Positions 12,471-25,802 of a stretch of 32,018 nucleotides of DNA are shown here, one piece after another; the first letter of the stretch is position 1; each line of letters begins with the position of its first letter. The notes under the pieces were generated by a model, which was given only the letters and a program-made list of their open reading frames with translations, did not search any database and was not told the origin of the DNA. Position numbers and translations under genes: made by a program. The DNA comes from Cocleimonas sp. (GTDB lineage Bacteria > Pseudomonadota > Gammaproteobacteria > Thiotrichales > Thiotrichaceae), in NCBI GenBank assembly GCA_023146675.1, contig JAGLBQ010000028.1:1-32018 (forward strand), read 5' to 3'.

Positions 12471-14945
12471 TCAAGTCAAAGCTTTCGCGCCATCAATAAA
12501 CCCCTGAATCTCATCAATACTAGGTAGTGTGCTGCGCTTGGTTATATATTCATGGACGGTAGAAATTTCTTGTAATACATTATCAGCATTTGAGGCGGCA
12601 AGTTTGGTCGTTGTGTTAAAGCCTGCAAGTTCGAGCAATTCTGCCAAAATACCATCTACTCCTTTAATGCGAATTAGATCAGCATTATTTACCCAGCCAT
12701 GAACAACCCACTTCTCTTTACCTAAGCTTTTGGATAATAAATTAATGCCTGTATCGGTTGATGTTTTTGTGAGTAAGTCTTGGGTGGTTTTAATACCCAT
12801 GATGTAAAGTCGTCTATCATCTTCGTTTGATATGGATTGAATAGCATCAATGGGAAAGTTTGATTCTTCTGCATCAGGGTAATGCGTTAAACTTTCTTTC
12901 GCCTGACTTAAACCATCTTTAGCTTTCTCAATTCCTGACATTGCCAGCTCTGCAATTCCTGCTGAAGCGAACATGCCTTTAATGCCATTGCTAGAGTTTT
13001 CATTGCTATCTTGATTATGATTGTAAGATTTTATGGAATCCTTTGCATCAGATGCTTTGTGAACAATTTCTTCTTTAGCACTATGGATTCCTTCTTTTGC
13101 CTTGTCAAAACTAGACTTTAATTTGTCAGAAACACCAGAGGATTCAAACTTTTCTTTTATATCTGAAAAGACATTTTTTTCTTCTGGTATGGCATTTTTT
13201 TGCACAACATGATCAACAGGTGCTGTTGTTATAGCGTCTTTTGTGTCTGATATTTTTTGTGATAGTTCATTGGGCGTTATTTTTTTCTTTACTTTATTTT
13301 GTTCTGCTGTTACTGGAGTAGACCGTATTTTTTCCTTCTTCGGTGTATTTGGTGCATAGTCCAGCGGTGCTTTGATGCTTTCTACCGCACTATCTTTTAC
13401 AGTTGAAACTTTGTCGAGTAGGTCTTTTTTACCTGCTTTTGCTTTATCAAAAGCAGATGTTAACTTGTCAGAAACAGCAGAGGATTCAAATTTTTCTTCT
13501 GGGTTGGTATTTTTTTGATCAATAGGTGCTGTTGTTATAGCGTCTTTTGTGTCTGATATTTTTTGTGATAGTTCATTGGGCGTTATTTTTTTCTTTACTT
13601 TATTTTGTTCTGTTGTTGCTGGAGTAGGCTGTGTTTTTTCCTTCTTCGGTGTATTTGGTGCATAGTCCAGCGGTGCTTTGATGCTCTCTACCGCACTATC
13701 TTTTACTGTTGAAGCATTGTCGAGCAGGTCTTCTTTACTTGCTTTTTCTTTATCAAAGCCAGATATTGATTTATCTGAAAGGATACTTTTTTCTTCTGGT
13801 TTGGCATTTTTCTGATCAATAGCTGTTGTTACAGCGTCTTTTGTATCTGACGTTTTCTGTGATAGCTCATCGGGTGTTATTTTTTGCTTTACTTTATTCT
13901 GCTTTGCTGGAGTAGGCTTAATTTCTTCCTTTTTAGATATATTTTTTGCATAGTCCAGCGGGGCTTTGATTGTTTCTAAGGCACTATCTTTTACCGTTGA
14001 AACTTTGTCGAGTAGGCTTTTTTTACTTGATTCTTCTGACGGTGCAGTAATGTTATCGCTATTAACAGGTTTAGCCTGATTCAAATCAGGTTCTGCTTTA
14101 TTTTCTGTTTCTGCATGTGAAAGGAGATCACTGTCTTTAGCTAATTGTTTTTTTAGCTTGTCTTCTTTAGTTGCAAGATCTTTTTTTAGTGTTTTCTGAA
14201 GAGTGTTTGCCTGTTGTAAACGGGTCTCAGCTTTTTCTTTTTCGACTAATGCATTGGATATTTGTTCTTCTTTTTCTTCCAGTTGTTCGGTTAGTTTTTT
14301 CTCTTTTATCGCAAAGCCTTTGGTTAAATTATCAACCTGTAACTCTCCTTTTCCCAAGTCTTTCTCGATATCAACGAGCTTATTAGTCGCATGATCAAGA
14401 TCAGTTTTGGTTGATTTTAATTTTGTCTCTAAGGTTGTATTTTTTTGTTGATATTCTTTTAGTCTGTTTTGTGTGTCTTTTTCTAGTAGAGACAATTGTG
14501 AAGAAGAGTGTTCCAGTTTCTTCTCTAGATCAATACTGGAGCTTTGTTGATCATCTTCATACTCCGATATTTTGCTATCAAACTGCGCCATGCTCATGGC
14601 GAGTTCTTCATCTTTTTGTGCGAGTAATGACTGCTGCTTATGTGTTTCCTCATCCGCAGTAGCCAGTTTTATCGTTAAACGCTCAAGCTTTTGGTTGTAG
14701 GTATGCTTTTGAGTTTCTATTTTACTTTCAAGTCTTTCTTTTTCATGGGTTACACCAGAAAGCTTATTTATTTTGCTGGCATAGCTATTGCGCTCTTGAC
14801 TGAGCGCATCGTATTTATCTTGCCACTTTTCATTAAGCGTATTCAGTTTCTTTTTACCACCTCCACGCAGTAACCACCCCAGTAAACCCGCAACCAAAGC
14901 AGTGATTAGAAGGCATAACCAAATTTGTGATAGTAAGTAAGCCAT
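12471..14945 (-). CDS. Membrane-anchored coiled-coil protein with ~100-residue tandem repeats and C-terminal DUF4332-like helix-hairpin-helix domain
   Basis: An 824-residue protein. Residues about 4-26 form a membrane anchor (LLSQIWLCLLITALVAGLLG), then a long coiled coil (about 30-270). A repeat array follows (about 300-630) with three near-identical units containing DKVSTVKDSAVESIKAPLDY and KITPNELSQKISDTKDAITT, plus a degenerate last unit. The final 126 residues (about 699-824) contain two helix-hairpin-helix-like halves: LYIMGIKTTQDLLTKTSTDT and DLIRIKGVDGILAELLELAG, resembling DUF4332. The long helical middle could span part of the periplasm or cytoplasm. Its ATG overlaps the stop of the OmpA gene by one base, implying translational coupling and a joint role. 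No function is known. Confidence 0.85.
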   Translation of the reverse strand: MAYLLSQIWLCLLITALVAGLLGWLLRGGGKKKLNTLNEKWQDKYDALSQERNSYASKINKLSGVTHEKERLESKIETQKHTYNQKLERLTIKLATADEETHKQQSLLAQKDEELAMSMAQFDSKISEYEDDQQSSSIDLEKKLEHSSSQLSLLEKDTQNRLKEYQQKNTTLETKLKSTKTDLDHATNKLVDIEKDLGKGELQVDNLTKGFAIKEKKLTEQLEEKEEQISNALVEKEKAETRLQQANTLQKTLKKDLATKEDKLKKQLAKDSDLLSHAETENKAEPDLNQAKPVNSDNITAPSEESSKKSLLDKVSTVKDSALETIKAPLDYAKNISKKEEIKPTPAKQNKVKQKITPDELSQKTSDTKDAVTTAIDQKNAKPEEKSILSDKSISGFDKEKASKEDLLDNASTVKDSAVESIKAPLDYAPNTPKKEKTQPTPATTEQNKVKKKITPNELSQKISDTKDAITTAPIDQKNTNPEEKFESSAVSDKLTSAFDKAKAGKKDLLDKVSTVKDSAVESIKAPLDYAPNTPKKEKIRSTPVTAEQNKVKKKITPNELSQKISDTKDAITTAPVDHVVQKNAIPEEKNVFSDIKEKFESSGVSDKLKSSFDKAKEGIHSAKEEIVHKASDAKDSIKSYNHNQDSNENSSNGIKGMFASAGIAELAMSGIEKAKDGLSQAKESLTHYPDAEESNFPIDAIQSISNEDDRRLYIMGIKTTQDLLTKTSTDTGINLLSKSLGKEKWVVHGWVNNADLIRIKGVDGILAELLELAGFNTTTKLAASNADNVLQEISTVHEYITKRSTLPSIDEIQGFIDGAKALT
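13219..14018. repeat. Three tandem ~300-bp coding repeats
   Basis: Cores lie at 13219-13425 and 13525-13731 (each 207 bases, nearly identical) and, more diverged, at 13822-14018. The repeat period is 306 then 297 bases, so the reading frame is kept. The first two units are much more alike than the third, which suggests a recent duplication by recombination. Confidence 0.85.
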
Positions 14946-15865
14946 TATTGCTTGTCCTCAATTGTAATTTCAATACGACGATTTCTAGCTCGACCAACAT
15001 TTGTTTTATTGCTGGCTACAGGTTCGCTAGATCCATGTCCTTGTGCCGTTAAACGTTTAGAGTCAATACGCTGATCGATAAGATACTTCATCACAGCCTT
15101 GGCACGCCCATGACTCAATTTTTTATTAAGTGATGCTTTTCCTGTAGAGTCTGAATGCCCATGAATGACTAGGTTGAAGCTACCGCATTCCTTAGCTGCT
15201 AAGGCTAGCTTATTAAGTACCCTGATACTGTTTTTCTGCACAGAATCACTAGAGGTATTAAAGTAGATAGGCGTTTTAAGTATCTGGTTAAATTTTTTCT
15301 GACAATCTTTTGATGCTTTTACTTGTTTTATAGGTGCTTCCTGAGCGGCTTCTTTTTCCTGAGACTCATCTTGTTTTACCGATATTTCTTTTGTTATTTC
15401 TGCTTTTTGAGTTTTATTCTGTTTTACGGGAGGCTCTATTGTGGGAGTATTTTTAGTTTTTTGTGTATCTTCTACTGAATTATCATCAGAATCAGTAGTT
15501 TGTTCTTTTGGCTGTTCTATATTTTTTGTATCAACCTGAGGACTGTTATTTTGATCTGAATCTTGAGGGGTTGCAGTACTGTTAGTAACAGTCAGTTGAT
15601 TCTCTATGAGGTTGTAACCATTAATACGCACAGCTTGATCAGCCGCATCTTTTGCTTCCTTGTTAGGAGCAGAGCCCGTTAGGGTAATATCGCGACCATC
15701 GACAGCAAGATTGACCCATCCTAGATTTTGCTTATCCAGTGCTTCCTGTGCGCGTGTATTAATATCGCTTTGAATAGTCGTTGCGGTGTTCATTTTGTGG
15801 GAGCAGTAATAGCCTAATAAGGCAGTAGGTATGAGTAATAATAAGAGAAGTAAAAATTTTTTCAT
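14945..15865 (-). CDS. BON-domain plus OmpA-type peptidoglycan-binding envelope protein
   Basis: A 306-residue protein with AGGAGA five bases before ATG. A hydrophobic N-terminal segment (about 3-20) anchors it or acts as signal. Residues about 28-95 resemble a BON domain (VNLAVDGRDITLTGSAPNKE, then ENQLTV). A Gln/Thr/Lys-rich linker (about 96-190) follows. The C-terminal OmpA domain (about 195-306) has YFNTSSDSVQKNSIRVLNKL, the NLVIHGHSDSTG motif and ARNRRIEITI, with the conserved Asp and Arg residues that bind diaminopimelate of peptidoglycan. Such proteins tie the membrane to the wall. It starts the operon with the coiled-coil protein downstream. Confidence 0.93.
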   Translation of the reverse strand: MKKFLLLLLLLIPTALLGYYCSHKMNTATTIQSDINTRAQEALDKQNLGWVNLAVDGRDITLTGSAPNKEAKDAADQAVRINGYNLIENQLTVTNSTATPQDSDQNNSPQVDTKNIEQPKEQTTDSDDNSVEDTQKTKNTPTIEPPVKQNKTQKAEITKEISVKQDESQEKEAAQEAPIKQVKASKDCQKKFNQILKTPIYFNTSSDSVQKNSIRVLNKLALAAKECGSFNLVIHGHSDSTGKASLNKKLSHGRAKAVMKYLIDQRIDSKRLTAQGHGSSEPVASNKTNVGRARNRRIEITIEDKQ

Positions 15866-16303
15866 CAGATCTCCTGAAACTAATGTGAGCTGGAGGTGGT
15901 CACATTGTGAGTATCTATTATGATTAAGGTAATAAGTAAATGCTAATGTACTAATATTATTACTATTAATTCACCGCTCGTATGGTCATTAGTACACTAT
16001 ATCCTATTGTAATGCTTTTCGCTGGTTATTATCTAGACAAAAAGTCTAATTATATAACACTAAGGTTAATTAATTTTATTATCTTTATTAGAAATAGTTA
16101 TCAGTATGAAAATACTGAGTATTTTAGTAAATTAACTATAAATAACTGAGCTTTTTAACCATACTTTGTCGCTATAGCAAATACGGATTTAGAGGAGTCT
16201 CTTTATTGATAAACACTAGAGTCAATAGCCCTCATAATTTTAATTTATTACAGACCGCATAAGGTAATTTTTTTATTTATATTTAACCCAAATAGTGAGA
16301 AAA
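15866..16303. promoter_or_regulatory. 438-bp divergent intergenic region between the OmpA operon and the sigma factor/kinase operon
   Basis: No coding frame is convincing here; the sequence is very AT-rich. Promoters of both divergent operons must lie here. Two small hairpins are visible: TAGAC-AAAAA-GTCTA at 16034-16048, and TCAGTAT-GAAA-ATACTGA at 16101-16118, the latter with a GNRA-type loop. I cannot assign a specific promoter with confidence. An ECF-type autoregulatory promoter would be expected ahead of the sigma gene. Confidence 0.5.
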
Positions 16304-16822
16304 ATGGAATTTAATCAAAATAACTCAATCCTACTCCAATCTGTTTATCCTGATCTTAAGCGCTTAGCTTCGATTTATATGTCAAGGGAGCGAGCAGGGC
16401 ATACGTTATCGCCAACAGCACTCGTCAATGAAGCCTATTTAAAGCTGTGTTCCAATAAGAATATTGAAAGTGAGGATAAACAGCATTTTTTAGCGATTTG
16501 TGGGCGCTGTATTCGACAGGTATTAGTGGAGCACTCGCGCAAGAAAAATGCATTAAAACGTGGTGGTGACCTTATCTTTTCAACGTTGTATGAAGAATCA
16601 TGCGGCAATGATGTGGGTAAGGAAACAGATTATGCGGCATTGGATGAAGCATTGAGGCGTTTAGAGCAGTTAGATGAGATACAGGTGAGAGTGGTCGAGT
16701 TGCGTTTTTACTCAGGAAGGACAATTGAGGAAATCGCTACACTTCTTGACCTCTCAGAATCAACGATAAAGCGCAAATGGATGATGGCTAAAGCATGGTT
16801 GTACAAGGAAATAAATCAGTAG
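16304..16822 (+). CDS. ECF-type RNA polymerase sigma factor
   Basis: A 172-residue sigma-70 family protein starting at the ATG at 16304 (a GTG at 16295 is an alternative). Region 2 contains LASIYMSRERAGHTLSPTALVNEAYLKL-type sequence, split here as RAGHTLSPTALVNEAYLKL, the signature of the ECF subgroup found next to Ser/Thr kinases in planctomycetes, xanthomonads and other gammaproteobacteria. Region 4 has VELRFYSGRTIEEIATLLDL followed by SESTIKRKWMMAKAWLYKEI, the -35-recognition helix. No anti-sigma gene is near; the kinase following it by a 28-base overlap is the expected regulator or target. It is plausible, not shown, that kinase activity controls this sigma factor. Confidence 0.92.
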   Translation: MEFNQNNSILLQSVYPDLKRLASIYMSRERAGHTLSPTALVNEAYLKLCSNKNIESEDKQHFLAICGRCIRQVLVEHSRKKNALKRGGDLIFSTLYEESCGNDVGKETDYAALDEALRRLEQLDEIQVRVVELRFYSGRTIEEIATLLDLSESTIKRKWMMAKAWLYKEINQ

Positions 16823-19068
16823 TAGAAGAAAAAACAAGTGAAGCAAAAGCCTATGCTCGCATAGAAAAATATTTTTTATCTGCTTTGGCAGTAGACAAGA
16901 AAAACCGAATCGAATGGTTAAATCATGCGCTAAGTGATGACTTAGATATACTCAAAGAAGTTAAGCTACTGCTGTGTGCACACCATGAAACAGATAGCTT
17001 TCTGGAAACCCCCGCGCCGGTGAAAGCCACTATTGATGACATGACTTCTCGCTGTCCTGATTTGGCAGGTAGACGGCTTGGGGTTTATGAGGTCATTACT
17101 AAAATAGCCACGGGTGGAATGGGGAGAATCTATTCTGCCAAACGTGTTGATGGCGAATATGAAAAAATGGTTGCCATTAAGGTGGTTGAGTACTCCAGCC
17201 TTGATACGGGGTTATTCCAGAAAGAGCGTCAATTATTGGCAGATTTCCAGCATCCTAATATTGTTACTTTGTTAGATGGTGGGACATTAAAAGAAGGTTT
17301 TCCCTACCTGGTCATGGAGCTGGTAGATGGACTGGCTATCAATCGTTATGTAAATTCAGCAGAGCTTTCAATTAAAGAAATAGTGACATTATGCTGTGAA
17401 CTTTGTGCAGTTGTTGATGATGCGCATCAGCAAGGAATTATTCACTGTGACTTAAAACCAGATAATATTTTAGTGATCAATAAAGGCAGCCGCAAAGGCA
17501 CGCTTAAACTACTTGATTTTGGTATCGCGCAAACTTTATCGCTGCGAAAAACAGAGGCTGATATTAAGCCAAGAGGGCTCACACCAGAATATGCCAGCCC
17601 ACAGTGTCATTACAATAAAGTGCCTCATGCGACCGATGATGTCTTTAGTCTTGGGGTGATTCTTGGGCAGCTACTCAGTGGACAGCCTCTTTCATTAATA
17701 CAAAAAACATCACAAATAAAAGAACACTATCAAGCGCCCGATATTAATGAGCTGGCAACGCATATTGAAGATAGAGAATTAGTACAAATTATGCGTAAAG
17801 CAACGGCGAATAAGCGCAGTGGGCGTTATCATTCTGCTAAGGCACTTCAAGATGATTTGCAAAACTGGTTAGATGAAAAGCCTGTTGCTGCTGCACAGGG
17901 AGGGATGATATATGCGCTAAGTAAATCGATACACCGTGTGCGATATATAATTTTTATTGTGGTTACTCTTGCATTATTGGCGGCGCTTATTGGGCAAATA
18001 TTAGGAGAGCATTATGAGTTCCAACAGAGCAGTGATTTACGTGAGCATAATGCAATTGATGCAGTTGATGATTTAAACACGTTATTATCAAGCATTCCTT
18101 ACACCCCTAAAGTAGAAAAAGAAGTAACGACATTAACACTTAATCTTCTGCAAAATTTACACAAGGCAACCCCCGATAGTCAAATAATTAAAAAACGCTA
18201 TGCAGATATACTAATTCGTATGGCGAATGTGAATGGGCATCCTTATTATTTGAATCTGGAGAATAAGGCAAAAACACGCAGACAGTATGAAAAAGCACTG
18301 GGTCTATACAAAGAGTTGGAAAATTTGGAAAGTAGTAAGCTAGATGAGTCAATACAGCAGTCAGCGATTGTTAACCAACGCTATATTGAACACAGGTTGG
18401 CAGGGTTTGAGATTTATGAGAAAGGGGAGAGTGATCCCAATACAATATTTCAGGCACAGAAAAAAATGATCCTAGTGTGGGAAAAGCTAGCCTCTCGAGA
18501 GTTTGTCAACTTACCCTCTAAACAACGACTATTGCTGATTAATATGCTATTAGAAAATGCATATGAAAGCCTGCGTATAACGCCCTATGTGGAAACATGG
18601 GCTTTACTGGGCAATGCAAAAAAGATGTTGGAAAATAATGATATTGATGTGGCTAACTCTTTAAATGAACACACTTATTTACAGGCATTTTATTATGAAA
18701 TAACAGGGCATTATTACTACCTACAAGGCAACGTGAATGCAGCACTGACTTCTTATAGCAAAATTAAGCGCAGTATCGCAGGTGATCAATTTTCAGGTCG
18801 CTATCGTTATTTACTCACTAGGGTTGATAGTGCATTTGCTTGTCTTGGCTATTTGCAAAAAAACAATACAATGCAACAGCAACACTTTAAATATTTTGAC
18901 TATGCGCGTGCTAATTTAGAAGCGTTAGCCAATGAATATACCAATGTACCTTTTTTGCAATATCGGTCTGACAATATGAATCAGCGACAAAATGTTAGAA
19001 CAGCTAAAGGGCAGAAAGCATTCTGTGCTAATCCAATCGAGTTTTTATTGCCATCTATGAAAATTTAA
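16795..19068 (+). CDS. Transmembrane Ser/Thr protein kinase (Hanks type)
   Basis: A 757-residue protein overlapping the sigma gene by 28 bases. An N-terminal helical segment (about 15-75) precedes the kinase domain (about 97-360). Visible motifs are glycine-loop ATGGMGRIYSA (105-115), VAIK Lys129, alpha-C Glu144, IIHCDLKPDNIL with catalytic Asp219 and Asn224, DFG at 241-243, and TPEYASPQ in the activation segment. HCD replaces HRD, so this is a non-RD kinase, often not dependent on activation-loop phosphorylation. One transmembrane helix (about 384-404) leads into a ~350-residue extracytoplasmic helical part that may be TPR-like. The usual PASTA sensor domains are absent. The sequence suggests a sensor-kinase with a periplasmic input region. 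Confidence 0.93.
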   Translation: MVVQGNKSVVEEKTSEAKAYARIEKYFLSALAVDKKNRIEWLNHALSDDLDILKEVKLLLCAHHETDSFLETPAPVKATIDDMTSRCPDLAGRRLGVYEVITKIATGGMGRIYSAKRVDGEYEKMVAIKVVEYSSLDTGLFQKERQLLADFQHPNIVTLLDGGTLKEGFPYLVMELVDGLAINRYVNSAELSIKEIVTLCCELCAVVDDAHQQGIIHCDLKPDNILVINKGSRKGTLKLLDFGIAQTLSLRKTEADIKPRGLTPEYASPQCHYNKVPHATDDVFSLGVILGQLLSGQPLSLIQKTSQIKEHYQAPDINELATHIEDRELVQIMRKATANKRSGRYHSAKALQDDLQNWLDEKPVAAAQGGMIYALSKSIHRVRYIIFIVVTLALLAALIGQILGEHYEFQQSSDLREHNAIDAVDDLNTLLSSIPYTPKVEKEVTTLTLNLLQNLHKATPDSQIIKKRYADILIRMANVNGHPYYLNLENKAKTRRQYEKALGLYKELENLESSKLDESIQQSAIVNQRYIEHRLAGFEIYEKGESDPNTIFQAQKKMILVWEKLASREFVNLPSKQRLLLINMLLENAYESLRITPYVETWALLGNAKKMLENNDIDVANSLNEHTYLQAFYYEITGHYYYLQGNVNAALTSYSKIKRSIAGDQFSGRYRYLLTRVDSAFACLGYLQKNNTMQQQHFKYFDYARANLEALANEYTNVPFLQYRSDNMNQRQNVRTAKGQKAFCANPIEFLLPSMKI

Positions 19069-19715: not shown

Positions 19716-20045
19716 ATGAAAAAAACAGCATTAAGTATAGTCTCAATCATTTCAATACTCTTAGTATCAGAACCCGTTCTAGCAGAAAATGCATCAATAA
19801 AAATACGTATTCAAAAGCAAGAATTGCGTATCCAAAAAGGATGCGATAAAGGACAGATAACCCATGGTGAAGAGCTAATTCTTAAAAATGAACAAAAAAA
19901 TATAAAAAAAATGATAAAAAAACTGTCGAGGGGGCGATCTTTTTCATCAGGAAGTAAAAATAAAGTACACACAGCATTGAATAGATCAAGCATTAATATT
20001 TTTAAAAAACGTTATAATAAACCGAAGCGAAAAGGGAGTAAGTAG
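19716..20045 (+). CDS. Small secreted basic protein
   Basis: A 109-residue protein with a standard signal peptide (MKKTALSIVSIISILLVSEP, cleavage likely after VLA23) and TAGGA about 8 bases before ATG. The mature part contains RIQKQELRIQKGCDKGQITH and GEELILKNEQKNIKKMIKKL, followed by a Ser/Lys/Arg-rich tail (SSINIFKKRYNKPKRKGSK). The QxxRIxxG-xxGQITxGE pattern recalls a widespread family of small periplasmic proteins with paired helices whose function is unknown to me. A single Cys (residue 42) is in the mature part. An overlapping 77-codon frame starting at 19616 has no signal or family resemblance and is a shadow. Confidence 0.7.
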   Translation: MKKTALSIVSIISILLVSEPVLAENASIKIRIQKQELRIQKGCDKGQITHGEELILKNEQKNIKKMIKKLSRGRSFSSGSKNKVHTALNRSSINIFKKRYNKPKRKGSK

Positions 20046-20633: not shown

Positions 20634-22742
20634 TTATTTCAAGTATCTGTTAAGAAAAATAGTGGTAACACGAGATGTTGATAATGACTGAGATTGTGAG
20701 CAATTATTTACATGTTGCGATATTATTTTTCTAGCAATACGTTCTGTTCTATTAGCACCCTCAGTTGATACAGGAAATTTTTTTTCTTTAGCGCAAAGCA
20801 GTTTCAATTTTGACAAATACATTGCAGCGATTGAGTTTAAACGTTTTCTAATGATTAATTCCTTTCCTTTTAATAGTTTTCTTTTATGTATTAGTGCATT
20901 ATTGCTTGATGCATCACTTTGTTGTTTTATAGCCTCTAATCCATCAAGCTTTTGTTTTAATTGAGTTGTGTGTTGATTGAAGGTTTTGCTGTAATTAACC
21001 AGTTGATGGATTGCTGTTTTTTGTTTTTGTTTTTGTTTGTCAATTTTAGTTTTGGCTTGATTCTGCTTTTGTCTTTCAAGCTCTGCTAGCATATTACGCT
21101 TTTTCTCAGCAGCATTACTTTTAGTAATATCCTGTTCTTCATTTTGTGGTCTATTGTGCTTCTTAAGCTTAGCAGGTGGTGTAATAGCGATAGGAGGGTT
21201 GTCTGCTTTTTCTTTTTCTCGTTGTTCCCTTATTTTATTATTTTCAAACTCCAATCGTCGTTGTTTAACGAGAGCTGCAAGACGTCTTTTTTCAGCCAAT
21301 TTTTTTGCTTCAATTTTTTCTAATTGTTTACGTTTTTTGTGTTCTTGTTCCAATGCTATTTTTCTAATTCTAAGCTGCTCCTCTTTATGTTTTTTTTGTT
21401 CCGCTATTTTTTGTTCTTGCTGCTTCCTTTTTTCATGATCTTGCTTAATTAACAATAATCGAGCCTTTTTCTGTTTTTTCTTAGCAAGCTTAAGCTTTTG
21501 TTGCTGCTTTAATAATGCTAGTTTTTTTTGTGCCTTTAATTCCTTTTTCTCCTCAATTAATCGCTGTTTCTCAGCTTCAGCCGCCTCTGCTTTTCTATTA
21601 GCCTGCTCTTGTTGTTTTAAAGTTTCAGCTTGTGCTTGCAGGTGCTTTATCTTTATCGCTTCTTGCTTAGCTTTTTCTTCGGCAAGTAAGGTTTTGTTTA
21701 GGCTTATAGCCATTTTTTCTTGAATATTATTTGCAATAAATTGTGTGTTAGTCTGAATTTTTGGAGGTTCTTGACTTTTACTTTCAACCAAAGCAGCTGA
21801 ACCAGTTTTTTCCTCCTGACCTTGCCAAAAATAATAGCTACCAGCCGTAGCGGTAGTGATTGCAAATAAGGACAAAATAAATGTTGCCATCCTTCTTTTT
21901 GGTTTTTCTCTTTTTATTTTAAGAGGCTCAGTTGAGCCTGCTACCTGAGACTTTATTTTTGTTGGATTGACTTGTGCTTGTTTTTTCTTGAAAAGTAACA
22001 AACAATTATTGTCAGTTTGCTCTGTATCACCCTTAGATTCAAATTGGCGATAACACTTAATAATATTAGAATGTAAGCGAGCATTCGTTTTGGGGGTAGT
22101 ATAGCGATGGGATAATAAAGCCATCATTTCAAGGCGGTATTCTTCAATATCAAGAAGTTGAAAGGAAGGCTTAGCGTCATGCTCAAGATCAACGAGTAAG
22201 TTTGATAGTGAAATATTCGTTGGTTTTTTAATCTCACAATGATAGCGACGATTTACCAAGGCAATATGGGTATTACCAAGAAGAAGAAATATAAGTTGTT
22301 TTTTATATTGATAAAGTAACACAATCGATGGATCATATAGTGCTAAAATCTGCTGCTGCTCATGCGTTGTTTTATTGTCATTACTGAACTGATCAATAGC
22401 TACTAAGGAACCACTTTTAGTCTTTTTATTTTTAATTGAATCCAGCAAAACAGCTGCTTTCCACTGCTTACTAAATAATGTTAAAAACACCTCAGAAAAG
22501 TTAAGCTCTTTTTCTAATATATCAGAAAAGGCACGTTGAGCTACTTTGATAGCGAGTTCCGCACCCCGAGTGCTTCTAGAAGTAACCAATCTATCCTCAT
22601 TATTTTCAGGCAGATGCTCACTCGCGATGACAAACAAACCTTGAGACTTATCAATACAAAATGGCTGTGTAAAATGATGAAAATTAGGATTGGAAAGAGT
22701 ATTGCTATCAAAAAGCGTCCAATGCGATAATTGAGATGGCAT
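20634..22742 (-). CDS. Possible degenerate PP2C-like domain fused to a transmembrane helix and very long charged coiled coil
   Basis: A 702-residue protein. Residues about 30-215 have a strand/helix order reminiscent of PP2C phosphatases: QGLFVIASEHLP where DGMGG metal-binding residues would be, a helix AELAIKVAQRAFSDIL, and LIFLLLGNTHIALVNRRYHC resembling the GDSRxYLxR strand pair. The metal-ligand Asp residues are absent, so catalysis is unlikely. One transmembrane helix (about 285-305) leads to a Lys/Gln/Glu-rich coiled coil (about 345-600) and a basic C-terminal part with two Cys. The PP2C reading is by eye and could be wrong; the membrane/coiled-coil layout is certain. A kinase gene lies about 1.5 kb away on the other strand. 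Confidence 0.65.
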   Translation of the reverse strand: MPSQLSHWTLFDSNTLSNPNFHHFTQPFCIDKSQGLFVIASEHLPENNEDRLVTSRSTRGAELAIKVAQRAFSDILEKELNFSEVFLTLFSKQWKAAVLLDSIKNKKTKSGSLVAIDQFSNDNKTTHEQQQILALYDPSIVLLYQYKKQLIFLLLGNTHIALVNRRYHCEIKKPTNISLSNLLVDLEHDAKPSFQLLDIEEYRLEMMALLSHRYTTPKTNARLHSNIIKCYRQFESKGDTEQTDNNCLLLFKKKQAQVNPTKIKSQVAGSTEPLKIKREKPKRRMATFILSLFAITTATAGSYYFWQGQEEKTGSAALVESKSQEPPKIQTNTQFIANNIQEKMAISLNKTLLAEEKAKQEAIKIKHLQAQAETLKQQEQANRKAEAAEAEKQRLIEEKKELKAQKKLALLKQQQKLKLAKKKQKKARLLLIKQDHEKRKQQEQKIAEQKKHKEEQLRIRKIALEQEHKKRKQLEKIEAKKLAEKRRLAALVKQRRLEFENNKIREQREKEKADNPPIAITPPAKLKKHNRPQNEEQDITKSNAAEKKRNMLAELERQKQNQAKTKIDKQKQKQKTAIHQLVNYSKTFNQHTTQLKQKLDGLEAIKQQSDASSNNALIHKRKLLKGKELIIRKRLNSIAAMYLSKLKLLCAKEKKFPVSTEGANRTERIARKIISQHVNNCSQSQSLSTSRVTTIFLNRYLK

Positions 22743-22937: not shown

Positions 22938-25802
22938 TTAAGAGGCTTTTTTAAGTCGGGTGCATTTTAGACCAAATTGACGTTTCAACAAACCCAGATA
23001 AATTAAAAAGAAAGTAAATAAGCTATCAAAAGAGCCACCTGATTTATCATCTGCTACGATAGTTTTTTCTTCAGAAATTTTAATTTTTTCATCATCATTA
23101 ATAATAGTTGCTGTAGCGCTATTATTTATCAGTATCACATTGCTGCTAGGATTAGATAATAATAGCCAGAAGGTTTCATTATCTTCTATTAATTTATCGG
23201 CTACTATATCAATACTGATGGTTGCTGATATTTTTCCTGCAGAGATGGATAATGTCCCGCTATCTTTAAAAAAGTCACTGCCTGCGTGTGCTGTGTCATT
23301 AATAGTAACGTATTTTATACTGGTATTAGTCTTTGCTATTTGGTTTAATTTAATAGTAAAAATGGCTTTGCTTATCCCTAAATCACCTTCAATAATTGAA
23401 ATATTAGGTATTGTTACAGTGATGGGGGCAGTAATCGTGTCATTATCGATCACCATACCTTTTGTAATCAGATCACCTGTAGATTTAAATTGAATATTTT
23501 GTGGCGAACTTAGGGTTAAGTGATAAGTTTTATCATCCTCAGCAATGGTATTGCCAATGATCAATTGTGATATGGTTGCGTTGATTTGTCCCGTTAAAAT
23601 ATTGATTAATCCGCTTTGTATTTTGGCATTATTTTTACTGTCATGAATAGTATATTTAATCGATGAGTCTTCCGTTGCTGCTTTATTAAGACTGATAATA
23701 TAGCGCAGTGTTTTAGTGTCTGAATCGCCTTCTGTAATGGTAGGAGCATTGACGCTAGCGATTGGTTTATTCTCTGTTTGTAAGAATTCATTTATTTCTA
23801 CTTCACCCTCAGACAGTGCAAAGAAAATATTATTGCTACAGGCAACCATCATACGCGCATCGATCATTGCCCTTGTTGTGTCAGGGATGGTTAAAAACTG
23901 TGATCCATCATTTGGGGTGAGCATTAATAAATCCTGCGATGCACCCTCTTTTGTTAGTAGTTTTATATCAACATGATTACAGTTTACAGGTGCCCAGCTT
24001 GAGCCTGCTTCATTCCATCTGACTTCAATCTTTTCATTGCGATGATACAAAGAAAAATTTGTTTGTGAGATCACTTTAAATGGATTACCACTTGTCATTA
24101 TTTTTGTGTCTGCACGTGCTATGCCGCCATTATTATCTCGAACGGTAACAGCAAATTTCAAATCACGCTTGGTTAGGGGGAGTTGTTCGCCTTTTATTGG
24201 AGACTCACCAAATAATGTTGCTAGTTGTGGGAAGAATCGCTGATCAGAGTTAGAGGGTAAATAGCTACGAAATAGGGGGTTGTCACCCGCATCAATACCG
24301 ACCTTAACGGCTGTTCCATTGCTATCTATTTGATCCCATGTATAACTTAATGTATCGCCATCAATATCGGTCGCATGACTGCTTAATTGAAAAGGTGTAT
24401 TAACAGGAATAAAAAAGGGGGTGCCGACGGTTAGGGTTGGATTGTTATTATTACTCGCGTCTTTAACGCCGCAATTTGCTTTGCCGCTGTAGCGTGTATA
24501 GTGATTGATTTGATCGATACTCACCGCATTAAAAACAGCGTCTGAGTTGCGTTGTAAATTATCTGCGCCACAAATTCCCGCATAAGACATCACGGTGCTG
24601 CCACTACCAGGTTCTACGGCTGCGTCATGTTCACGGTTTCCGCCGCTACAGTTTTGCTCAATACTATTAAAGGTATGTGTTGCACCTAATTGATGTCCTA
24701 TTTCATGTGATACATAATCTATATTAAAACTATCGCCATAAGGACTAGGTGATCCTGTAATCCCTCCCGCTTTATGTGATTCTTGATTTGATCGACAAAC
24801 ACCGCTAAGTATTGCGAGACCACCAGTGCTTGCACCTCCAAAAAGATGACCAAGATCATAATTAGCATTACCAATGACCCTTTCCATATTCGTAATATTT
24901 TCATCCATCATATCGTGAGGATTGTCATTGGAAAAAGGATCAGAGGTGGGGTTTAGGTAGATTATTTTATCATTATTGGCAACTAATATAAATTTTATCC
25001 CAAGGTCGCGCTCATAAATCTGATTGACTCGGTCAATTGTTGTCAACATAGCACTTAATGTAGATGCTTTAGTGCCGCCATTTAATGCACTGTATTCTGC
25101 ACTAGCTGCTAGAGCTAAGCGATAAGTAATCAGTTTATTGGATGTTCTAGCTTGTACTTTTAATGACGTTGACCAGCTGTTTTTGGATAAAGGTGGTTGA
25201 ATGACAATCTCATCATAATCTGTTGTACGTTGGAATAGTTGCTTATTTTTTTGTTTACTAAAGCTATTATATAACGTGTTTGACCTTCCTGAATTTAATG
25301 ATTTATTTGCGAAGGTTTTATCAGGATCAATAAAAATTGTGTCAGCATTTTCCAATATCAACATGGCATGGAAACCTGCTTCAGTAAAATTAATGCGACC
25401 ATGAATATTTTTACCGTTAGCCGCTTTGACTTTCCATGTTTTAAATTCAGGAAACTTGTCTGCTAATGCTTTTTCCATTATGTAGTGTTCCGTTGCAATA
25501 ACAGCTAGCATCGAGCCATCAGGAAGTGGTAAATTTATTATTTTATTCTGGGTGGTATTTCTTGCCACCTGCTGTTCAGACGCAACTTTATATTGTGTAT
25601 TTTCACTAGAAAAAAGCTGTTGGCGCAAAGCTGTCTCATCTAAACTCAATAAGCGAGCAGAGTAGGGTGCTGATACTCCTGACACGGAAGATCTTAATTG
25701 TTTGATGGATGAGTCATTATGATTAGAAATATCTTTCCAGATGGGGTTGGCAAAAATATTAGTCGATACAAATAGGCTTAATGCAATAAGGGTTCTGCGC
25801 AT
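22938..25802 (-). CDS. Secreted reprolysin-like (M12) zinc metalloprotease with Calx-beta domains and GlyGly-CTERM-like tail
   Basis: A 954-residue exported protease. It has a signal peptide (1-18) and a propeptide-like region (about 19-215). The catalytic domain (about 220-440) has HEIGHQLGATH at 366-376 (HExxHxxGxxH) and the Met-turn VMSYAGICG around Met405, which are the metzincin signatures. A linking domain follows, then two Calx-beta domains (about 687-790 and 795-905; TEGDSDTKTLRYIISLNKAA, IEGDLGISKAIFTIKLNQIA), which bind calcium. The end reads SGGSFDSLFTFFLIYLGLLK followed by RQ, matching the GlyGly-Ser + hydrophobic + basic pattern of GlyGly-CTERM sorting signals cut by rhombosortase. 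The leader has GGACC, a weak ribosome-binding site. Extracellular or surface protein degradation is the likely role. Confidence 0.92.
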   Translation of the reverse strand: MRRTLIALSLFVSTNIFANPIWKDISNHNDSSIKQLRSSVSGVSAPYSARLLSLDETALRQQLFSSENTQYKVASEQQVARNTTQNKIINLPLPDGSMLAVIATEHYIMEKALADKFPEFKTWKVKAANGKNIHGRINFTEAGFHAMLILENADTIFIDPDKTFANKSLNSGRSNTLYNSFSKQKNKQLFQRTTDYDEIVIQPPLSKNSWSTSLKVQARTSNKLITYRLALAASAEYSALNGGTKASTLSAMLTTIDRVNQIYERDLGIKFILVANNDKIIYLNPTSDPFSNDNPHDMMDENITNMERVIGNANYDLGHLFGGASTGGLAILSGVCRSNQESHKAGGITGSPSPYGDSFNIDYVSHEIGHQLGATHTFNSIEQNCSGGNREHDAAVEPGSGSTVMSYAGICGADNLQRNSDAVFNAVSIDQINHYTRYSGKANCGVKDASNNNNPTLTVGTPFFIPVNTPFQLSSHATDIDGDTLSYTWDQIDSNGTAVKVGIDAGDNPLFRSYLPSNSDQRFFPQLATLFGESPIKGEQLPLTKRDLKFAVTVRDNNGGIARADTKIMTSGNPFKVISQTNFSLYHRNEKIEVRWNEAGSSWAPVNCNHVDIKLLTKEGASQDLLMLTPNDGSQFLTIPDTTRAMIDARMMVACSNNIFFALSEGEVEINEFLQTENKPIASVNAPTITEGDSDTKTLRYIISLNKAATEDSSIKYTIHDSKNNAKIQSGLINILTGQINATISQLIIGNTIAEDDKTYHLTLSSPQNIQFKSTGDLITKGMVIDNDTITAPITVTIPNISIIEGDLGISKAIFTIKLNQIAKTNTSIKYVTINDTAHAGSDFFKDSGTLSISAGKISATISIDIVADKLIEDNETFWLLLSNPSSNVILINNSATATIINDDEKIKISEEKTIVADDKSGGSFDSLFTFFLIYLGLLKRQFGLKCTRLKKAS

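Follow-up and report, generated by a model that had tools for sequence, protein, structure and literature searches.

A predicted membrane-anchored pseudo-PP2C protein confined to one genus of the Thiotrichaceae

A 702-residue protein and its relatives

The window analysed here is a stretch of 32,018 nucleotides of Cocleimonas DNA. On its minus strand, an open reading frame runs from an ATG at 22742 to a stop at 20634 and encodes a protein of 702 amino acids; a ribosome-binding-like stretch, AAAAAGGA, lies upstream of the start. An earlier note on this DNA had given the position of the frame as 20634-22742, and those coordinates are exact. The gene and its parts are as follows.

20634..22742, minus strand: whole gene, 702 aa, comprising a putative pseudo-PP2C domain, a transmembrane segment, a charged helix and a C-terminal helical domain; the homologues of the genus share this architecture
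21972..22742, minus strand: predicted PP2C-fold domain lacking the metal-binding motifs DG and SDG, residues 1-257 (AlphaFold2, Foldseek, motif table, dN/dS)
21828..21890, minus strand: single transmembrane segment, residues ~285-305, whose N-side flank is positively charged (+5 versus -1), with the same asymmetry in homologues
21054..21767, minus strand: highly charged segment, residues 326-563, single-alpha-helix-like by periodicity and salt-bridge tests; its length varies among the aligned homologues
20637..21053, minus strand: conserved helical C-terminal domain, residues 564-702, with invariant C650 and C681 (seven-sequence alignment, AlphaFold2, dN/dS)

All the relatives of the gene come from a single genus of the Thiotrichaceae. 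When 57 related genomes were searched with the N-terminal domain, strong matches (E 4e-39 or better) were found in seven of the nine genomes of the same genus and in none elsewhere. A profile search of 63 genomes of the family recovered the same seven and none of the 54 genomes from other genera, and the C-terminal domain, searched alone, led to the same seven again. Extending the search to 369 genomes of the class added only a chance match, and the viral contigs searched held no relative. Weak matches outside the genus (L018, L100, L102 and L104) were judged to be chance; L100 is a xanthine dehydrogenase. The absence of the gene from the other two genomes of the genus is not certain, because these are 93% and 58% complete.

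In all seven genomes the architecture recurs, either whole or as its two ends divided by contig breaks. In G000, G005 and G008, where no contig end cuts the gene, a single frame of about 700 codons includes both ends. Named records with the gene are marine metagenome-assembled genomes (MAGs) labelled Thiotrichaceae, Leucothrix and Cocleimonas, together with one labelled Aquificaceae, which a whole-genome search grouped with the same genus.

Fold and motifs of the N-terminal domain

The earlier note had read a PP2C-like order of strands and helices in the N-terminal part, and had proposed structure prediction and a fold search as the way to check it. Both bear the claim out. An AlphaFold2 model of residues 1-257, made with the seven homologues (pLDDT 78.6, pTM 0.80), begins with strands at 8-12, 21-30 and 33-43, helices at 53-78 and 82-104 and a strand at 138-146. 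Its second half has strands at 149-155, 159-164, 169-172 and 204-210, a helix at 217-235 and a last strand at 248-253. Compared with the PDB by Foldseek, this model matches the PPM/PP2C class: all 50 matches listed are proteins of that fold, mostly with probability 0.97-1.00, and the best among them is RsbX (2.7e-5). The matches listed include bacterial serine phosphatases, plant HAB1, human PPM1A/B, the catalytic domain of Mycobacterium tuberculosis PstP (2cm1) and a relative of TAB1 (2irm). They also include, at E<=0.001, the effector (C-terminal) domain of RssB (6z4e), an inactive PP2C domain. TM-scores are moderate (about 0.3-0.5) and rmsd values large, so that the fold class is clear and its details are not.

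The sequence itself says less. PP2C_2 (PF13672) is the Pfam family that more of the homologues match than any other, three of the seven, but below the cut-off (best E 0.0018); the window protein scores 13.2 bits against a cut-off of 24 bits. These weak matches sit in the register expected from the predicted structure. Profile-profile alignment with hhalign of the seven N-terminal domains to VWA-linked, kinase-fused and stand-alone PP2Cs of the same bacteria gave scores within those of shuffled controls; nonetheless, in the best of these alignments the strands pair in the register expected. A sequence profile search of the PDB with the domain found nothing relevant, and an NCBIfam search gave no match. 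Pfam matches to CDC13_N and PH_MADD, each in single homologues only, were judged to be chance.

Sequence evidence alone is thus insufficient to assign the domain to PP2C. It is the structural model that identifies residues 1-257 as a PP2C (PPM) fold. Could the domain instead be a lineage-specific alpha/beta domain, unrelated to PP2C, that resembles the fold by chance? The want of a significant sequence match would fit such an origin. Nevertheless, we regard it as very improbable, given that the PDB matches listed belong to one fold class, mostly at probabilities near the maximum, and that PP2C_2 recurs as the weak Pfam match in the register predicted from structure.

The metal-binding residues of the enzymes, which the earlier note had found missing, are indeed absent: neither the DG nor the SDG motif occurs in any of the seven homologues in our motif table. 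The final DN, however, is kept in five of the seven, including the window protein, and lost in two. With the register set by the order of strands rather than by coordinate superposition, an invariant glutamate (E42, 7/7) stands where an Asp is expected in the strand that bears VADGMGG in enzymes, and it is not followed by a pair of glycines. At the LLxSDG position, the seven sequences read LLSH, LLSQ, LLPH or LLPS.

Loss of the DG and SDG motifs makes phosphatase activity unlikely, and the N-terminal domain has most likely lost catalysis. The invariant E42 and the DN of five homologues still make up a residual acidic site, so that weak or altered activity is formally possible. On a stronger version, the protein would have diverged but would still be a working phosphatase like PstP, relying on E42 and the aspartate of the terminal DN together with other ligands. 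E42 adjoins the DG position and never varies, DN is present in most homologues, and the layout is common to PstP (PMC3052367). Yet the SDG aspartate and the acidic residue of motif 1 are missing in all seven sequences, and two of them have no DN either; we consider an active enzyme improbable.

The domain is nevertheless not decaying. Compared with the nearest species (Nei-Gojobori, dS about 0.8-0.9), dN/dS is 0.23 for the N-terminal domain and 0.17 for the C-terminal domain, and the former value indicates that the N-terminal domain is maintained by purifying selection.

Two intact PP2C_2 phosphatases are encoded elsewhere in the same genome (L001 1420-2861 and L002 1420-2834), each adjoining a VWA-type protein in a TerY-triad-like arrangement. 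They would be good real-enzyme controls for work on the pseudophosphatase.

From the membrane to the C-terminal tip

Tethering by one helix, as the earlier note had it, agrees with our analysis, which finds one transmembrane segment at about residues 285-305. Its basic N-side flank predicts that the N-terminus lies inside. The same note had described what follows as a charged coiled coil of about 250 residues. Highly charged it is: residues 326-563 contain 21% K, 13% E, 7% R and 1% D, with a net charge of +30. The coiled coil is doubtful, however. We detected no heptad (hydrophobic 3.5-residue) periodicity across residues 326-563 (p 0.88), and no 70-residue part fell below p 0.11. Oppositely charged pairs at i,i+3 and i,i+4 exceed those in shuffled sequences (p 0.002). 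Both tests used one sequence. Together, the missing periodicity and the excess of potential salt bridges make a single charged alpha-helix more likely.

Beyond the rod lies a part that was absent from the earlier note. Residues 564-702 form a separate conserved helical domain of 139 residues. AlphaFold2 models it (pLDDT 91.2) with a long hairpin and, in addition, two short helices; its fold has no PDB match at E<=0.001. Wherever the C-terminal sequence is available, the only cysteines beyond the transmembrane segment are two in this domain, 31-32 residues apart and invariant (7/7). Such a pair would be expected to form a disulfide in the periplasm, and C650 and C681 likely do so. The positive-inside rule and the conserved cysteines agree on a topology in which the N-terminal domain is probably cytoplasmic and the rod and tip periplasmic.

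This half of the protein recalls TolA, which has a single transmembrane segment, a long charged periplasmic helix and a small C-terminal domain, all with counterparts here. The window protein might be a TolA/TonB-like envelope protein, whose rod and C-terminal domain tie the inner membrane to the outer one or to peptidoglycan while the PP2C-fold domain is a cytoplasmic docking knob only. The long charged single-helix-like segment with its small two-cysteine domain would fit such a bridge, and that domain is the most conserved part by dN/dS. However, the N-terminal domain is kept in all homologues and is itself under purifying selection. TolA has no cytoplasmic globular domain. Moreover, a fold search of the PDB with the C-terminal domain gave no match at E<=0.001, TolA and TonB included, and the Pfam scan did not detect a TolA C-terminal domain. 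We hold a TolA/TonB-like role to be possible, but rather unlikely.

Neighbours, function and known systems

At 16295-19068 of the window (plus strand), an ECF sigma factor gene (PF07638) overlaps the gene for a Hanks-type Ser/Thr kinase with a transmembrane segment (16795-19068). The arrangement is like that of the ECF43-type sigma/kinase pairs EcfP/PknT and EcfK/PknS (PMC13147305). The pseudo-PP2C could be a dedicated partner of this kinase and sigma factor that protects or reads their phosphorylation, and the earlier note had pointed to the nearby kinase as something to assay for binding. The kinase gene lies 1.6 kb from the pseudo-PP2C gene here and shares a contig with it in the nearest species (L027). 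The association does not hold beyond these two, though. All nine genomes of the genus encode the kinase, even the two where we did not find the pseudo-PP2C gene, and outside the window species and its nearest relative it is on other contigs. Three species (L024, L025 and L032) have an NhaD/CitMHS-like transporter downstream of the gene instead. We consider a dedicated partnership improbable. In L031 the downstream neighbour is an RNA pseudouridine synthase, and across the loci of the genus we found no conserved operon partner.

Other features of the window deserve mention. Between the kinase and the pseudo-PP2C, 19716-20045 (plus strand) encodes a small basic secreted-looking protein that is conserved in the nearest species (L027 2272-2613). 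Directly upstream of the pseudo-PP2C, 22938-25802 (minus strand) encodes a reprolysin-like metallopeptidase with a Calx-beta domain, in an order kept in the nearest species (L021). At 12471-15865 (minus strand), the frame of a BON-OmpA protein touches that of the next protein, which is repetitive, 824 aa long and ends in DUF4332.

On the models described above, the protein is a lineage-restricted, membrane-anchored pseudo-PP2C. A cytoplasmic PP2C fold that is devoid of metal-binding residues and joined to a rod and a further domain would probably be a binding or signalling adaptor, not an enzyme. With moderate confidence, we favour a membrane-anchored pseudo-PP2C adaptor with a periplasmic rod and tip. 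The PP2C domain would sit at the inner membrane, on its cytoplasmic side, and one transmembrane helix would connect it to the long charged alpha-helical rod and the small helical periplasmic domain, probably stabilised by its disulfide. Like RssB, which binds sigma-S, the PP2C fold would bind another protein and not dephosphorylate it. The rod and tip, in the periplasm, would anchor the adaptor or tune it to the state of the envelope. The adaptor role, like the partner and the signal, is conjecture. More ambitiously, the family might be a new class of bacterial transmembrane pseudophosphatase receptor, restricted to one Thiotrichaceae genus. Its non-catalytic PP2C would read phosphoproteins at the inner membrane, as the earlier note had thought possible, or sequester them, and a single-helix rod spanning the envelope would control it; we put this forward only tentatively. 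If the adaptor reading is true, it would offer an enzyme-free route leading from the envelope into the cytoplasm.

Animals, too, have PP2C-type domains that lack phosphatase activity, in PHLPP2 (PMC12002173) and TAB1. The window protein probably shares this property, but they are eukaryotic and their domain context is unrelated. The literature that we searched on bacterial membrane pseudophosphatases described none.

The earlier note knew of no described protein with this layout. That holds in part. M. tuberculosis PstP has a cytosolic PP2C domain of ~240 aa, a juxtamembrane region, one transmembrane helix and an extracytoplasmic domain with disulfides (PMC3052367, PMC12421883), and in the window protein the parts come in the same order, in a topology predicted from the positive-inside rule and the conserved cysteine pair. 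However, PstP is an active Mn-dependent phosphatase with its metal motifs, whereas the window protein, judged by its motifs, lacks the catalytic Mn-binding centre. PstP also has no counterpart of the charged helix of 240 residues or of the helical tip with its one Cys pair.

In function, the closest parallel may be Escherichia coli RssB. Its effector domain, a PP2C fold, has no active-site residues, and sigma-S and ClpX are its binding partners (PMC7226468), so that an inactive PP2C fold serves as a protein-binding adaptor (PMC7226468, PMC12143880). Both proteins have a PP2C/PPM fold, predicted in the window protein, that is stripped of active-site residues. By contrast, RssB is soluble, with an N-terminal receiver domain and a C-terminally truncated PP2C domain. 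In the window protein, the PP2C domain is N-terminal and keeps its last helix and strand, and the transmembrane segment, rod and tip follow; the predicted fold begins at residue 8, and the Pfam scan found no receiver domain. Soluble RssB is the bacterial pseudo-PP2C described in the papers that we found. The window protein would be a second case, membrane-anchored and PstP-like in layout, and would suggest that, more than once in bacteria, the PPM fold has lost its catalytic role and been taken over as a module for binding.
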